Part shown: positions 1,189 to 8,719 of the stretch, one piece after another | Layout of the letters: each line of letters starts with the position of its first letter | Position numbering within the stretch: position 1 is the first letter of the stretch | Source: Pyrinomonadaceae bacterium | GTDB lineage: Bacteria; Acidobacteriota; Blastocatellia; Pyrinomonadales; Pyrinomonadaceae | DNA length: 64,000 nucleotides | Assembly (NCBI GenBank): GCA_026129865.1 | Contig: JAHCHG010000010.1 | Span: 62,001-126,000 of the forward strand | Direction: 5' to 3' | The notes under the pieces: model-generated | Seen by the model: the letters and a program-made list of their open reading frames with translations, nothing else | What the model was told of the DNA's origin: nothing | Database searches by the model: none | Position numbers and translations under genes: made by a program

Positions 1189-1386
1189 ATTAACGCTCTG
1201 ATCCGCGAGTTTGAAAGCTAAGTATTATCGCCGCGCATGACGAAGCCGGCGCGGCGTTTATCGAAAAATTCTTCGCCGAATGTAAAATCGAATGTCCGAT
1301 TCGCCGACCGTTCCGCCGGCGTTTGTGATTGACCGCGAAGGACTTTTGGCGAAAAAACGTGAGTTTGACGCAAGAAAGCGGGATTT
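1189..1386. other. Decayed sequence after the pseudogene
   Basis: No open gene is supported. Short fragments such as FVIDREGLLAKK near 1321 look protein-like but are interrupted, so this is probably more coding debris from the same degenerating region. Confidence 0.4.
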
Positions 1387-1455
1387 TGCCGGTGAAACCG
1401 AAGTTATATGTCCCGCTTCGCCGCCCGCTGACGGCTTATATCGAATTCACGTTAT
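1387..1455. repeat. Internally deleted remnant of the multi-hairpin element
   Basis: The segment GGTGAAACCGAAGTTATAT at the left and GACGGCTTATATCGAATTC at the right match the left-internal and right-terminal parts of the elements at 2873-3111 and 5940-6184. About 170 bases of interior and the left terminal repeat are missing. It abuts the mgtE leader. Confidence 0.6.
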
Positions 1456-2867: not shown

Positions 2868-2872
2868 GGAAT

Positions 2873-3111
2873 GTGAGTTCGAGATAAGAAATTCGGTTTT
2901 AGTCGGTGAAACCGACGTTATATTTATAGCCCACATCACCAGATGTGGGAAAAGTATAGTTTATTGACAAAGCCATTGAAAATGGCGATATAAAAAATGT
3001 ATGTCGCGGTTTTCAACCGCTTGAAACAAATTGCTAAATTGTTCCCATAACTAGCGTTATGGGCTACAAATAGGTTGCCGTCTTCGACGGCTTATGGCGA
3101 ACTCACATTAA
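2873..3111. repeat. MITE-like multi-hairpin element, copy A
   Basis: This 239-bp element is bounded by imperfect terminal inverted repeats (GTGAGTTCGAGATAAG left; its complement at the right end matches 14 of 16). Inside are six hairpins in a row: GTCGGT/ACCGAC at 2902-2916, CCCACATC/GATGTGGG at 2930-2949, GCCATT/AATGGC at 2972-2986, GCGGTT/AACCGC at 3006-3020, CCCATAAC/GTTATGGG at 3044-3063 and GCCGTC/GACGGC at 3077-3091. Four of the six have GAA or TTC triloops. It has no coding capacity and starts five bases after the mgtE stop, so it will be transcribed as the mgtE 3' end. Confidence 0.85.
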
Positions 3112-3258
3112 AGTTGTTTATGATGAACTAAATGAAACAGCCCGAAAAATCTTTTATCTGTTTCGGAGTTATAATTTGTTGAAATATTAGTGATTACTTT
3201 TTCCCGCGCTTCAGTTTAGAACCGCATAATACCGATTCAAATTAGCTTTTGGCGTAAA

Positions 3259-3360
3259 TTGCCGGAACGCGGACACTCCTGTCAATTGCCGGAACACGGA
3301 CACTCCTGTCCGCCCCGCGTTGAAATCGGCATACCTTGCGGACAAGAGTGTCCGCCTTCC
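3259..3360. repeat. REP-like hairpin repeats, second cluster
   Basis: Three more relatives of the GCGGACA...TGTCCGC palindrome occur: GCGGACACTCCTGTC near 3271, ACGGACACTCCTGTCCG near 3297, and GCGGACAAGAGTGTCCGC in inverted orientation near 3338. The unit ATTGCCGGAAC precedes the first two. The gene-free stretch 3112-3511 otherwise holds only the hairpin at 3404-3440. Confidence 0.65.
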
Positions 3361-3403
3361 AACCGAATACGTCATTTCAATTTGAATCGGTATAACGCAC
3401 AAG

Positions 3404-3440
3404 CAAAAGTAACGCTGAAATTATTCCAGCGTTACTTTTG
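3404..3440 (-). terminator. Hairpin after the LppP/META/YbaY gene
   Basis: A perfect 14-bp stem (CAAAAGTAACGCTG with CAGCGTTACTTTTG) has a 9-base loop. It lies about 70 bases past the stop of the minus-strand gene ending at 3512. The T-run after the stem is short, so efficiency is uncertain. Confidence 0.5.
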
Positions 3441-3511
3441 AACTTGGACGATTAACCGCTTGCCGCTCCGGTTTGTGTCTGCGTATTTACAAGGCGTTCA
3501 GTTTTCGCAGT

Positions 3512-4825
3512 TTATCGTGCTAAATCAACGATAATTTCAGCTTTGTCGGGATTGCCGTTTGTAATTACCTGATAGCTTTTCGTGCTGGTAAAACGCAGTT
3601 TGCCGTTTTCGTAAATTTGCGCCCGCAGTGCGTAACGATTGCGCTGATTGATTTTGTTCGGATCGTATTTTAATTCAAAATCAAACGGTACCTGGCGACC
3701 TTCGGCATTGATCGTCTGTTCGGCGATGGTTTGGGATTTCGCGTCCGCCTTTGAAACGTCAAGCAATTGAATTTTAATCACCGCATTCGGCGCGAGTGCG
3801 ATGCGCGGCAGATAGCTGACCGTTCCCGTTACGCTCGCCGTTTTATCTCCGGGATTTTTCGCACGGAAAATTAAATTAGGTTTGTTTTTAACAAAAAGCC
3901 GCAATGTGTCGCCTTCGATTTCAAATTTAGTAACATCACCCAGCGATTGCAGGAAATTTCTTTCGAGACGATTTGCCGTTTCGTCGGCACACGCCATCAG
4001 CGTTCCGGCGATGTTGGAAAATTTCAAACTCGCGCCGTTCATTTCAAAACCGCCCGAAAAAAGATTGCAGCCCGCGTCGCCGGAAATGCGTTTTTCGTCT
4101 TTGTTAAATTCAATGAACGGTTTGTCCGAAGATAAATTTTGATTCCCGATCTTCGTTAAAGTCCAGCGTTTGCCGAATAATGAATTCATATTTGAATTAT
4201 CGTTCGTTTGATTATCGGGCTGAACGGTCGCGTTTGTTTCAATTAACGTCGGCACGAGATCGGGAATATCATCGCGTTTTAGTTCGTAAAAAACATTACT
4301 GATTCTCGACGGACAGCAGAGCGCGTCGGTTTGATTATAGCGGACAAATTCCGCCGAAATATTTGTCGGACTGTTCAAACTAAAATCGGTCAAAGCACCG
4401 TCCGAGCGCGAATCCATCGCCGCAGGCGAAAGCGTTCCGGCGTATCTGCCTTCCCAATAAACGAACGCTTGATACCCGACGGGGCGGCACATTCCGTCAA
4501 AACCTGAAAGCGCGGTAAAAATCTGCGTCGTGCCGAATCGCTGCGACGCGCCGTATAATTTCCAGCCCATTTTCGCCACGGCTTCTTCCGCCAAATTTGA
4601 CGGCTGACGAATCTGTTCATAACACCGTTTGAGCATCGTCGCATCGTCCGTTACTGCGGCGGGACGCGGCAGAGTCGGAAAATTATTTCCCGTTCTGTTC
4701 CAACTTTTAAGCGGTTGGTCGAGCCAAGATTTATTCGTCTGCGCGGTTTGCGCCGACGCTGCAATTGTAGTTAAAAATATTGCTGAAATTAAAAATAGTA
4801 TTGTCGTTAAGTTTTTTTGTATCAT
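3512..4825 (-). CDS. Secreted LppP/LprE-like, META and YbaY-like three-domain protein
   Basis: I start this at the ATG at 4825 (437 aa) because it follows AAGGAAAAG and opens a signal peptide (MIQKNLTTILFLISAIF, cleavage near ASAQ). After the leader, about residues 40-190 resemble the LppP/LprE lipoprotein domain, including a DALCCPSR segment. Residues about 215-310 form a META/HslJ-type domain (RWTLTKI, GDAGCNLFSGGF, TLMACADE). The last 100 residues resemble the YbaY beta-barrel domain (LPRIALAPNAVIKIQLLDVS). META and YbaY domains are typical of envelope proteins, but their biochemical roles are poorly defined. No lipobox is evident, so it is probably periplasmic. Domain names come from motif memory, and exact boundaries are approximate. 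Confidence 0.75.
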   Translation of the reverse strand: MIQKNLTTILFLISAIFLTTIAASAQTAQTNKSWLDQPLKSWNRTGNNFPTLPRPAAVTDDATMLKRCYEQIRQPSNLAEEAVAKMGWKLYGASQRFGTTQIFTALSGFDGMCRPVGYQAFVYWEGRYAGTLSPAAMDSRSDGALTDFSLNSPTNISAEFVRYNQTDALCCPSRISNVFYELKRDDIPDLVPTLIETNATVQPDNQTNDNSNMNSLFGKRWTLTKIGNQNLSSDKPFIEFNKDEKRISGDAGCNLFSGGFEMNGASLKFSNIAGTLMACADETANRLERNFLQSLGDVTKFEIEGDTLRLFVKNKPNLIFRAKNPGDKTASVTGTVSYLPRIALAPNAVIKIQLLDVSKADAKSQTIAEQTINAEGRQVPFDFELKYDPNKINQRNRYALRAQIYENGKLRFTSTKSYQVITNGNPDKAEIIVDLAR

Positions 4826-5013
4826 TTTTCTTTTCCTTGTATAAAATTGTTTTAATATAAAAAAATCCGAAACATTTTTCTGGATTGTGAATCGAATTTT
4901 TTCTAATTCGATTTCTGTTTTTAGAACGAAATGAAGCACTCCGACTTGCAGTTTTTCGTCCCGTTTTTGCGACGTGAAACCTTTATATTCACTCGTCAAA
5001 AACTAATTTCGTT

Positions 5014-5937
5014 TCAACTCAACGGCGGAGTTTCCTTAATTTCCTCAATCGCCGTGCCGCGCCTTTTTTGCAGCGAAATCCATACGCCGAGTAAAACCAA
5101 TGTGCCGCCGGCGATTTGCCAAAAAGTAGGGCTTTCGCCCAAGAAAATGACGGCAATTAACACGGCGACAACCGGCATTAGATTGAGAAAATTCGCCGTC
5201 TGTCCGGCGTTTAAATGCTGTAGCGAACGGTTGTAAAGCAGCATTGCGACCGCCGACGAAAACACGCCGAGATAAATTATGCCCATCCAGCCGGATGCTG
5301 AAATGGGTGGAAAATTTGTGCCGCCGATTTCAAAAACGGCGGCGGGCGCGAGCAGAATTGTTCCGAAAATCGTGGCACCGGCTGTGATGACGAGCGGATC
5401 AAAGTTTGCCAGACGCTTGGCAAACAGCGTGTAAGCCGCCCAAAATAAAACCGACAAAAGCATCAGGAAGTTTCCCAAAGACGAATTCGGCGCGTCCGCG
5501 CTTTCGCTGGCAAAAAGCATTATCAGAAAAATTCCGGCAATCGAAACGCCGATTCCGAGCAGACGAATCGGCGACAGCGTTTCTTTAAGAAAAAAAGCGG
5601 CGAGCAGCGCGGTTACAATCGGAATAAAACTCTGCACGAGTGCGCCCTGTGCCGCACTCGTATAAACGAGCGACAAATTGTAGACAACAGTGTATAAAAA
5701 AACGCCGCTCGCGCCCATCAGCGCGACTGCAATCCACGGCACGGGACGCGGCATTTTCGCCAACTTGCCGCCGAAAACGACGAAAGCGATGAGCAAAACC
5801 GAAGCAATCAGATAACGCAATAACGCAAACAAAACCGGCGGCACTTCGGCGAGCGACGCTTTTGTAACGGCATACGCGCTGCACCAGATAATCATTGCGA
5901 TAACCAATAAAATAATCGCTGAAAACCGTTTATTCAT
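5014..5937 (-). CDS. DMT-superfamily (EamA) transporter
   Basis: This 307-residue inner-membrane protein has ten predicted helices arranged as two tandem EamA repeats (about residues 8-140 and 150-285). That is the usual form of drug/metabolite exporters such as RhaT/YdcZ relatives. The repeat starts are recognisable from MIIWCSAYAVTKASLAEVPP and from LFWAAYTLFAKRLA. The substrate cannot be told from sequence. Its start lies next to the hairpin element at 5940-6184, which therefore occupies its upstream region and may separate it from its original promoter. It runs in the same direction as the genes on either side but is not tightly spaced with them. Confidence 0.88.
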   Translation of the reverse strand: MNKRFSAIILLVIAMIIWCSAYAVTKASLAEVPPVLFALLRYLIASVLLIAFVVFGGKLAKMPRPVPWIAVALMGASGVFLYTVVYNLSLVYTSAAQGALVQSFIPIVTALLAAFFLKETLSPIRLLGIGVSIAGIFLIMLFASESADAPNSSLGNFLMLLSVLFWAAYTLFAKRLANFDPLVITAGATIFGTILLAPAAVFEIGGTNFPPISASGWMGIIYLGVFSSAVAMLLYNRSLQHLNAGQTANFLNLMPVVAVLIAVIFLGESPTFWQIAGGTLVLLGVWISLQKRRGTAIEEIKETPPLS

Positions 5938-5939
5938 AA

Positions 5940-6184
5940 TTAACGCGAGTTCGAGATAAGAAATTCGTTTTTAGTCGGTGAAACCGACGTGATATTTGTA
6001 GCCCAACTCGCAAGAGTTGGGAAAATTGCAAAATGTTGATGAAGCCATCGAAGATGGCGACATAAAAAACCGTATGTCGCGGTTTTCAACCGCTTAAAAT
6101 AAATAGTTAAACTGTTCCCATAACTAGTGTTATGGGCTACAAATATGCCGCCGTCTTCGACGGCTTATGTCGAACTCACGTTAA
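5940..6184. repeat. MITE-like multi-hairpin element, copy B
   Basis: This is a second copy of the element at 2873-3111. It has 21-bp terminal inverted repeats, TTAACGCGAGTTCGAGATAAG at the left; the right-end complement differs at two positions. The same six hairpins occur in the same order. The second stem is CCCAACTC/GAGTTGGG instead of CCCACATC/GATGTGGG, and the third is GCCATC/GATGGC instead of GCCATT/AATGGC, so the changes keep pairing. It lies between two minus-strand genes, just upstream of the DMT transporter start. Confidence 0.85.
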
Positions 6185-6197
6185 TTATTACTTCAAC

Positions 6198-8585
6198 TCA
6201 TTCTTGGGTTGGAAATGGTGCGATAAATTCGACGAAATCGTCGTCGCTTTTATCCAAAGGTTTGACTGCGCCGCTGGTTTGAATATCGCGCCATCGCAAA
6301 CGTCCGTTTGCGCCGTAAAGTATAAATTTAACTTGATTTTTCGAGCGTTCGACGCTGACTTCCAAGAAACTCTGAAAAAACGGCGAACGGTTGAAATCGA
6401 AAGCACCTGACACCATTTCCTCGTCGAACGGATAACCGCGAAACCATTTCAGCCACCAGTAAAAAGGCATTTTCCAAAATGGAGCTTCCCGTTGGATCTT
6501 TTTCGTCAATTCGTCGGTTCGCGGGTAAAATGCATAATCATTTGTTACGGGATTTTCGGGAAATCCGAGCGATGTGCCGATGCTCAAATATGCACCGCCG
6601 CCGCCGTTGACGAAACTCAGCATTTCCTTTTCTCCGTCCACCGTCTGCGACTTTATTTTGTAAAATTCAAAATCGTGCGTGTCGCCCGCCATCACCGCGT
6701 CAACATTGTAGCGTTGCAGCATTTGGTAAATTTTGTCGAAATCTTTATCATCCGTTGCCGTATATTCACCGCCAACGTAGAACGGATGACCGAGAACTAC
6801 GAGCTTAAAATTGTTGCCCGCTCGTGTCAGAGCCGCTTCGAGCCACGCTTTTTGTTTTTCATCAAGCCGACGCAAAATGCCCGTATCAACTGTAATTAAA
6901 GAAAATCCTTTGGTGTGCATTTCAAAAAAAGGAGCTCGTTGCAAACCGTTTTTGATTCGGTAATAGGAACGCAAGCGTTCGGCTTCTGCGGTGATTTCGT
7001 CGAATCTTTGATCGGTTGTTACAGCATCGGTGTTTAAGTCTTCGGCAAGACGCGAACGCAGAGAAATTTGTGCCGCATCAAGTGTTAAAAAATTAGCGTT
7101 AAAACCTTCGTTGGCATCAAACCAATCGTGATTGCCCGGAATTGCGTAAAGAGGTTTTTCAAAGCCTTTGAACGGCAGATAAAAATTTGTTTCATAATCC
7201 TTCATCTTTCCGTCGGGATAAATTACGTCCGATGAGAGAACGAGAAATTTCACCTCGTCGCGCTGGTTTGCGGCGATGATCTGATCGTGCAGAGATAATT
7301 GCGAAGCGTCGCCTTCGCCCGTATCGCCTATGACAATAAAGCTAAAATCACCCTCATCGGTTACGCCTTCGGGTTCGATCGCAAAAACTTTGTCCGGTGC
7401 GACACCTTTTTTAAGTGCGTCCTTTTCGACATCTTCAGCCATTCTTTGCCGCCAAACAACCACGCGGTTTTTCGTAATTTCCTGCCACACGCCGGATGCC
7501 CAGTTTTCCGAATTAAAATACCAGCTAAAACCCCAGATCGAATTGACCGCAATCAAAATCGCCGTCAGAGGCAAGCCGTAGCTTAGAACACGCCAAAAAG
7601 CAAAATTTAGCGAATGTCGCATCTCCCGCATCTCCAGAGCAAACCGCATACGGCTCGTCAACCAAAACTTCAAAAGCCGTTCGGCGAGAGAAAAATCCTT
7701 TGATTTTTCGTTGAGGTTGAAAAACCGATGCCAGGCGATCCTCTCAAGCGGGCGAGTAATTTTTCGCCAGAGCAAACGTAATGGAAGAATTAGAATTAAC
7801 GCCAAAAGAAGAGCAACGACCGCGTCGCCGACGACTGCCGTGAACGGCGAGATAAAACCGATAAAAGACCATTGTGCATCGGTTCGCAAGAGATGTATCA
7901 GAAAAAATATTCCGAGCAAGGTCAGACACCAGAAAATATTCTGACTTTTGGAATTTGAGAAAAACGTTAAGATCTTCTCTTGTAAGTCCTTTATCAAACT
8001 GTTCGGCTCAAGTCCCAAACGAGCGTCGGGATGCAGGCTTGTGTCGGGTTTGAAAGCGGGCGGCTCAAAACCTTTTTCGGGAAGAAAAAACATCGTCCAG
8101 CCTTCGAATATCAACCGCAAGCCGAGAATCACGCCGATTGCTAAAATGCCGAGGTCGGCAGTAAGAAAAAACCAAATTAAGAATCCGAGGGCGATAGTAA
8201 AAAGTCCGTTAAAAACGCTCCAACGCCGTTCCTGTCCCGATTGTTTATAAGCGGTAAAAAGTTTGAACGCGCCGTCGCCGGCGAAAAAAAGGGTTACGGC
8301 AAAACGCAGTGCGGAAACGGCGATATTCGGGCTTAAGAATAAAACCAAACCGAGCAAGGTCGTAACCACACCGGCGGCGTAGGAGACCAGCGATTCGGTT
8401 TTGTCATCGGAGCGAAAAGTTTCGACAAATTGCAGCAGACCTGCGGCAACCAGCGCGATTCCCAAAAGCGCGATGATCCATCCGCCAAAAAAAACGGGAG
8501 CGAATACGACGGTCGCTCCCAATAAGATCACGCCCAAACCGAGTGCACGGCGTTTGGTTAATTTTTTCCAGTTATTCTGTTTCAT
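6198..8585 (-). CDS. HdeD-like membrane domain fused to a metallophosphoesterase
   Basis: I prefer the ATG at 8585 (795 aa, MKQNNWKKL) over a TTG 15 bases upstream; neither has a clear ribosome site. The N-terminal 170 residues form six membrane helices resembling HdeD/DUF308 acid-resistance proteins (GVILLGATVVFAPVFFGGW). Further transmembrane helices lie around residues 215-290 and 340-365. From about residue 405 a calcineurin-like phosphoesterase follows, with metal-site motifs VIGDTGEGD, SSDVIYPDG, PGNHDWFD, VVLGHPFY and MAGDTHDFEFY. The order of these motifs suggests an intact two-metal active site, probably on the opposite side of the membrane from the loops. The substrate is unknown, and the fusion itself is unusual. 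Confidence 0.82.
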   Translation of the reverse strand: MKQNNWKKLTKRRALGLGVILLGATVVFAPVFFGGWIIALLGIALVAAGLLQFVETFRSDDKTESLVSYAAGVVTTLLGLVLFLSPNIAVSALRFAVTLFFAGDGAFKLFTAYKQSGQERRWSVFNGLFTIALGFLIWFFLTADLGILAIGVILGLRLIFEGWTMFFLPEKGFEPPAFKPDTSLHPDARLGLEPNSLIKDLQEKILTFFSNSKSQNIFWCLTLLGIFFLIHLLRTDAQWSFIGFISPFTAVVGDAVVALLLALILILPLRLLWRKITRPLERIAWHRFFNLNEKSKDFSLAERLLKFWLTSRMRFALEMREMRHSLNFAFWRVLSYGLPLTAILIAVNSIWGFSWYFNSENWASGVWQEITKNRVVVWRQRMAEDVEKDALKKGVAPDKVFAIEPEGVTDEGDFSFIVIGDTGEGDASQLSLHDQIIAANQRDEVKFLVLSSDVIYPDGKMKDYETNFYLPFKGFEKPLYAIPGNHDWFDANEGFNANFLTLDAAQISLRSRLAEDLNTDAVTTDQRFDEITAEAERLRSYYRIKNGLQRAPFFEMHTKGFSLITVDTGILRRLDEKQKAWLEAALTRAGNNFKLVVLGHPFYVGGEYTATDDKDFDKIYQMLQRYNVDAVMAGDTHDFEFYKIKSQTVDGEKEMLSFVNGGGGAYLSIGTSLGFPENPVTNDYAFYPRTDELTKKIQREAPFWKMPFYWWLKWFRGYPFDEEMVSGAFDFNRSPFFQSFLEVSVERSKNQVKFILYGANGRLRWRDIQTSGAVKPLDKSDDDFVEFIAPFPTQE

Positions 8586-8719
8586 ACTCGAAAGCCGCAA
8601 TAACGAAACAGATCATTTTGAGTTTAAAGTTAAAATGCGCCCTTCGCTTTGTTTAAAAGGAAACAACAGAAAAGATACAAGTATCATAATCGTCGTTTAA
8701 GTGAACTAGAGGTTAAATC

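Follow-up and report, generated by a model that had tools for sequence, protein, structure and literature searches.

The ends of known IS200/IS605 transposons carry one subterminal hairpin each, and both hairpins lie on the same strand. Among the TnpA-Y1 transposases, subclass 1.2 is characterized by the signature DH[IV]H, WQ and YxxxQxxHH, and neither repetitive extragenic palindromic (REP) sequences nor insertion sequence (IS) properties have been reported for it, IS200 terminal structures being generally absent as well (Quentin et al. 2018, PMC6006769). Y1 genes flanked by terminal inverted repeats, termed TIRYT, have been described also from Acidobacteria and mostly belong to subclass 2.1 (Di Nocera et al. 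2013, PMC3733652). The class-2 relatives contact the GTAG foot and the loop bases of their hairpins, with largely non-specific stem contacts, and leave the inverted complement unbound (PMC8266576). Here we analyzed a stretch of 64,000 nucleotides (the window) from Pyrinomonadaceae bacterium GCA_026129865.1 (JAHCHG010000010.1, positions 62,001–126,000, forward strand), which contains two full copies of an element with six hairpins between terminal inverted repeats. This element very likely consists of two layers and lacks a transposase of its own: the inverted three-hairpin ends of a subclass-1.2 Y1 transposon are enclosed in the shell of a miniature inverted-repeat transposable element (MITE) of IS982 type.

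Copy 1 occupies positions 2870–3109 and copy 2 positions 5942–6182, both on the plus strand and measured from the outer edge of one terminal repeat to the outer edge of the other. All six hairpins are perfect in both copies and follow in identical order. An initial annotation of the window had recognized the two full copies, whose bounds are refined here, their terminal repeats and the common hairpin order, and the compensated stems it quoted between the copies are correct. The six hairpins are not six independent units but two inverted copies of one three-hairpin module, with hairpins 1–3 forming one half-unit and hairpins 4–6 the other. The module is built from a 6-bp hairpin with a GNA loop, 13 nt ending in GTAG, an 8-bp hairpin with a GNNA loop, a spacer of ~24 nt and a second 6-bp hairpin with a GNA loop. 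Read on its own strand it starts with A and ends in GACATA, and its first linker of ~13 nt is of the GACATATTTGTAG type. Modules of the type found in the host carry GAA on both 6-bp hairpins and a GCAA-type loop on the 8-bp hairpin. Conservation covers the loops, the GTAG foot and the linker adjoining the foot, whereas the spacer that separates hairpin 2 from hairpin 3 varies, as do the letters of the stems, although the stems remain paired. A DNA search of the host genome (4.4 Mb on 21 contigs, assembly 95.8% complete) identified eight long copies and several fragments, and a half-unit covariance model found 18 half-units, namely eight inverted pairs and two single ones. In a survey of the bacterial family, half-units were present in 65 of 119 genomes and 22 of 29 genera.

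Several inverted half-unit pairs in this survey lie ~450–550 bp apart, and the gap holds an open reading frame (ORF) of 148 aa with a Y1_Tnp domain, as observed at eight loci including L080. The flanking modules have the same orientation and spacing as in the window core. The encoded proteins reach 82.7–102 bits against Pfam Y1_Tnp, score above the cut-off of NCBIfam transpos_IS200 and match the TnpA structures of IS608 and ISDra2 by sequence (E 4e-15 to 3e-14). They harbor the motifs DHVH, WQ and Y-xxx-Q-xx-HH, with H55, H57, Y113 and Q117 invariant in an alignment of 13 proteins; their assignment to subclass 1.2 is based on these motifs and the length of ~148 aa in comparison with PMC6006769. 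Genome G082 contains two transposase-bearing copies that are 91.7% identical over 659 bp, are bounded by the outer hairpins and have unrelated flanks, as expected for a transposed element.

Since the core and subclass-1.2 genes of any kind are both too common per genome for their joint presence to be informative, we tested adjacency instead. A stem-blind scanner, which uses hairpin sizes and distances only, was applied to the regions on either side of 73 homologues, taken from named genomes of Acidobacteriota, Planctomycetota, Verrucomicrobiota, Deltaproteobacteria and Bacteroidota. The module was detected beside 46 of the 73 homologues (32 left flanks and 39 right flanks, both in 25), compared to none of 730 shuffled flanks and none of 125 windows located 1.5–1.9 kb away. 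Within the family, 17 of 24 subclass-1.2 loci are bordered by the module versus one of 21 loci of class-2 REP-associated tyrosine transposases (RAYTs), and this single locus is without TAG. Across 77 modules the middle stem measures 8 bp in 70, and the foot reads AG in 73 and TAG in 63. Triloops conform to GNA in 105 of 124 cases and never to TNC, tetraloops to GNNA in 50 of 64 and never to TNNC, an orientation specificity which suggests that each module is recognized on one particular strand. The similarity of modules correlates with that of the transposases (Mantel rho 0.51, 0 of 2000 permutations). Many of the loci negative in the scan possess either related hairpins whose loops are longer or, among the Bacteroidota, single 5-bp hairpins arranged in arrays in place of the three-hairpin modules. 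At four Bacteroidota loci (L215, L224, L202 and L198), these arrays border the subclass-1.2 genes, have GNA loops and are spaced by ~12 nt of the GACATATCAATA type.

The pairing of the stems was assessed in 16 half-units from the eight host copies. Standard pairs fill 98.8% of the 320 pair cells, and 65 cells are changed on both sides, whereas the corresponding values are 82.9% and 22.8 in shuffles and no higher than 51% and 4 in slid registers. Double changes affect 12 of the 20 pairs, and only four changes are restricted to one side. Across the family, 97.5% of the cells in 103 half-units pair, with 530 double-change cells against 128 in shuffles; this alignment was fitted to the model and is hence biased towards it, unlike the alignment of the 16 host half-units. 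Among 1907 pairs in 96 half-units from family and host, 1842 are Watson-Crick, 34 G-T and 16 A-C, and ~40 distinct stem sequences exist for each hairpin position. The excess of G-T over A-C mismatches on the loop strand (p 0.015) weakly points to folding of that strand. The covariation extends from the two window copies to all copies in the host, and instead of uncompensated changes the further copies show paired stems together with constant loops and feet. The initial annotation had taken the maintained pairing to suggest selection on the folded RNA or single-stranded DNA, and recognition of folded single-stranded DNA is indeed the likeliest cause of the compensation, even if not its sole explanation.

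Copies with one common left linker probably descend from one composite founder, and their second hairpin has diversified and is yet fully compensated. Compensated diversification after one founder would indicate either continued selection via recognition by a Y1 protein or palindrome repair. In the latter process, template switching during replication makes imperfect palindromes perfect, and pairing would arise without selection. Palindrome repair could account for the scarcity of intermediates among the host copies, in which stems appear to be replaced wholesale, and for the persistence of pairing in old copies whose transposase is absent. It would not, however, fix stems of 6, 8 and 6 bp, GNA and GNNA loops on one strand and a TAG foot across phyla, and the mismatch excess of 34 to 16 slightly favors folding of the loop strand. 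We regard it as unlikely that repair is the cause of the pairing.

Each strand of the element folds far better than its dinucleotide shuffles (z −7.2 and −8.0; none of 200 shuffles matched it), and strong RNA folds are predicted for both strands. Together with the intergenic sites, copy 1 directly after mgtE and copy 2 between two co-directional genes, this would suit elements kept as RNA structures, for example as transcription terminators or mRNA stabilizers, as has been proposed for REPs. Such a role is very unlikely: no Rfam family matched, the only match in the window being a tRNA, wobble pairs are rare (34 of 1907), and a function as RNA does not predict modules that sit next to transposase genes and consistently face inward.

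The window copies are bounded by outer repeats of ~19 bp that match the ends of the IS982 family. The pattern AACGTGAGTTCGASATAAG occurs in 42 of the 119 genomes, and a reversed control was almost without matches. In three genomes it flanks elements of 0.92–0.99 kb (L334, L336 and L329, with AACGTGAGTTCGACATAAG-type ends), two of which encode an IS982-family transposase of 288–305 aa (NF033520, 251 bits for L334 and 242 bits for L336), and the third an ORF that is shorter and shares the DDE domain. We also considered whether the outer repeats belong to the Y1 element; this is ruled out, as IS982 copies end in the same repeats. MITEs bearing these ends (72–272 bp) are frequent, and the interiors of most are of other kinds; six-hairpin cores with other stems were found inside such MITEs in G033 (L130), G026 (L365) and G042 (L367). 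Target duplications of 4–7 bp are present at many of them, including AATT (copy 2), AAAAT, AGATT, AATTTT and ACTTCTT. Because the similarity of most copies ends at the IS982 repeats and duplications flank some of them, the element appears to have dispersed here as an IS982-type MITE. Six-hairpin cores in G033 and G030 are enclosed by another terminal repeat (AGACATCTTTCCAAAATA), which is unrelated to the first. Long simple palindromic interiors were observed in further IS982-type MITEs (L354–L358 and L370), and dozens of terminal-repeat sites are present in G001 and G042.

That the copies are plain IS982 MITEs and their hairpins incidental filler might seem to follow from the matching terminal repeats, the target duplications at several copies and the frequency of IS982-type MITEs with unrelated interiors in the family. 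It is hardly credible, as filler would not keep compensated stems and the core is found without the shell in other genera, around transposase genes and, within the host genome, at L008 and the partial copies L075 and L076, from which the IS982 repeats are absent. The least credible alternative views the elements as bacterial interspersed mosaic elements (BIMEs) or REPINs of a class-2 RAYT, for which the inverted pairs, the GTAG foot of the middle hairpin as in GTAG-type REPs and the existence of class-2 genes in the host could be cited, but the host RAYT loci L022, L023 and L024 each have their own hairpin family with GGAG or CGAG feet, the module scan found the one TAG-less class-2 locus mentioned above, and the protein of L080, the sole neighbor of a GAA-type module that was scanned, reaches 22.8 bits against a REP_Tyr_transpos cut-off of 80.

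Hence, we favor a core that represents the inverted end modules of a HuH/Y1 transposon, of which the six-hairpin form would be the version without the 148-aa gene. The Y1 transposase would bind each module folded on one strand as single-stranded DNA and read the T/GTAG foot, both loop types (GNA and GNNA) and the fixed spacing, the stems being needed as structure and not as sequence. Under this condition stem sequences would be free to vary provided that a change in one arm is matched in the other, and constant loops and feet next to freely changing paired stems are what recognition of the class-2 kind predicts. GNA loops are unusually stable in DNA hairpins. The inverted modules would present the two ends on opposite strands, unlike in IS608, and the cleavage scheme must therefore differ from that of IS608 or be similar to the one used by inverted REP pairs. 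With its shell of ~19-bp IS982 repeats, the unit would have spread in the host genome chiefly in the manner of an IS982-type MITE and left short target duplications behind. This reading retains much of the initial annotation: the proposed REP/IS200-type substrate corresponds to a module found in related genomes at the borders of IS200-like Y1 transposase genes, the term MITE-like agrees with the IS982-type ends and the duplication at copy 2, and the absence of a transposase holds for the window copies themselves but not for the relatives of core and outer repeats, in which transposases with matching ends were found (Y1 subclass 1.2 for the core and IS982 DDE for the shell).

Several observations weigh against this interpretation. 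In the host assembly, we found no subclass-1.2 gene flanked by the GAA/GCAA-type module and, at E 1e-5, no match to an IS982 transposase. The host possesses six subclass-1.2-like genes, those aligned sharing no more than 42% identity with the L080 type, and at least three of them (e.g. L016, L017 and L019) carry modules with other stems; the hairpins adjoining the host Y1 genes that were checked for a cognate transposase likewise have different stems. The host copies are only ~72–86% identical to each other and are hence old, and the diversification of stems with compensation after a single founder is unexplained by the IS982 route alone. A clean empty site was not recovered, as G064 and G069 lack the element of G045 at the syntenic place and have other sequence there. 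Finally, since the ends of IS200/IS605 elements reside on one strand and the modules described here are inverted, the model of same-strand cleavage is not directly transferable.

Further arrangements of related hairpins were noted. On host contig C18, a subclass-1.2 gene is accompanied by tandem six-hairpin units (L019, 2108–2956) which have the layout of the window core and unrelated stems (GTCGCC/GGCGAC and CCTAGCGA/TCGCTAGG), and on contig C19 (L017) another such gene lies between repeats of a TTAG-CCGTGGGT hairpin module, with several in tandem on its left. Half-unit pairs occur on both sides of a subclass-1.2 gene in G030 (L121), amounting to two six-hairpin units. At four loci of G033 (L128, L133, L137 and L138), the inverted middle hairpin is broken near contig ends by one common sequence (ATTAGTTTCTACACAA...), a pattern resembling the insertion of a multi-copy element that the assembly does not resolve.

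The window copies are composed as follows. In copy 1, the left terminal repeat AATGTGAGTTCGAGATAAG (2870–2888, plus strand), which matches IS982-family ends, precedes the three hairpins of the plus-strand half-unit: the outer 6-bp hairpin 1, GTCGGT-GAA-ACCGAC with its GNA loop (2902–2916), the REP-like 8-bp hairpin 2, CCCACATC-ACCA-GATGTGGG (2930–2949), with the foot ATAG where most copies have GTAG, and the inner 6-bp hairpin 3, GCCATT-GAA-AATGGC (2972–2986). The inverted half-unit on the minus strand comprises the inner hairpin 4 with its GAA loop on that strand (3006–3020), hairpin 5, CCCATAAC/GTTATGGG followed by CTAC, the GTAG foot on the minus strand (3044–3063), and the outer hairpin 6, GCCGTC/GACGGC (3077–3091), adjoined by the right terminal repeat (3091–3109, minus strand). 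Inspection of the flanks of copy 1 revealed no target duplication. CGGACACTCCTGTCCG-like repeats are located beside it (3269–3358), with a related GCGGACAAGAGTGTCCGC palindrome, a small palindromic repeat, at ~3339–3357. Copy 2 is a composite of the same anatomy and almost fills the gap between an EamA-type gene (5014–5937, minus strand) and a gene at 6198–8600 (minus strand). Its target-site duplications AATT (5938–5941 and 6183–6186) enclose the left terminal repeat AACGCGAGTTCGAGATAAG (5942–5960, plus strand), the plus-strand hairpins 1, GTCGGT-GAA-ACCGAC (5974–5988), 2, GTAG plus CCCAACTC-GCAA-GAGTTGGG (5998–6021), and 3, GCCATC-GAA-GATGGC (6044–6058), the minus-strand hairpins 4 (6079–6093), 5 with its CTAC foot (6117–6140) and 6 (6150–6164), and the right terminal repeat, an exact AACGTGAGTTCGACATAAG on the minus strand (6164–6182). 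The third, internally deleted copy that had been placed at 1387–1455 exists but spans 1356–1453 (plus strand); this composite has both terminal repeats and retains the outer hairpin CCGGTGAAACCG plus a decayed second hairpin.

More generally, subclass-1.2 Y1 proteins might be the transposases of widespread, undescribed single-strand transposons with inverted three-hairpin ends that are read by loop, foot and spacing and leave the stems free, the transposase-less form having repeatedly been joined to DDE-type terminal repeats and so having gained two independent routes of mobility; we consider the case for and against this generalization to be evenly balanced. With this association, subclass 1.2 has a specific DNA partner, found repeatedly in several phyla, by which its activity can be tested, and the inverted three-hairpin ends are relevant to the way in which single-strand transposases locate their DNA. 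The wholesale compensated turnover of stems is a natural experiment on recognition by shape, and the IS982 shell illustrates that the ends of one transposon can carry those of another.

We know of no Y1 ends resembling these inverted three-hairpin ends, and a literature search, with most subscription journals outside its reach, returned no description of such a structure. When compared to the class-2 REP, BIME and REPIN sequences with their TnpA-REP (RAYT) proteins in E. coli, Pseudomonas and Stenotrophomonas, the elements share the GTAG-type foot 5′ of a hairpin, the arrangement in inverted pairs, non-autonomous intergenic copies, a HuH/Y1 transposase and compensated stem variants; they differ in having three hairpins per end instead of one and few copies per genome, and in the transposase, which carries Y-xxx-Q-xx-HH instead of Y-xxx-NP and is encoded between two modules. 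With the IS200/IS605 elements IS608 and ISDra2 they have in common the single-domain HuH/Y1 transposase of ~150 aa, related in sequence, and hairpins at the ends, which here number three per end, with the two ends inverted. As in TIRYTs, the Y1 genes lie between inverted repeats and not beside single REPs, but the three-hairpin layout is missing from the TIRYT repeats as described (PMC3733652). The window copies and transposase-bearing IS982 copies from the same bacterial family have matching terminal repeats, and with IS982 elements and their MITEs the elements share duplications of 4–7 bp, whereas the interior is a six-hairpin core of Y1 type and not a remnant of a DDE transposase. The proteins correspond to subclass 1.2 itself in length (148 aa) and in the motifs DH[IV]H, WQ and YxxxQxxHH (PMC6006769), and while this subclass was published as having neither REPs nor IS properties, most of the genes examined here are flanked by inverted three-hairpin modules.

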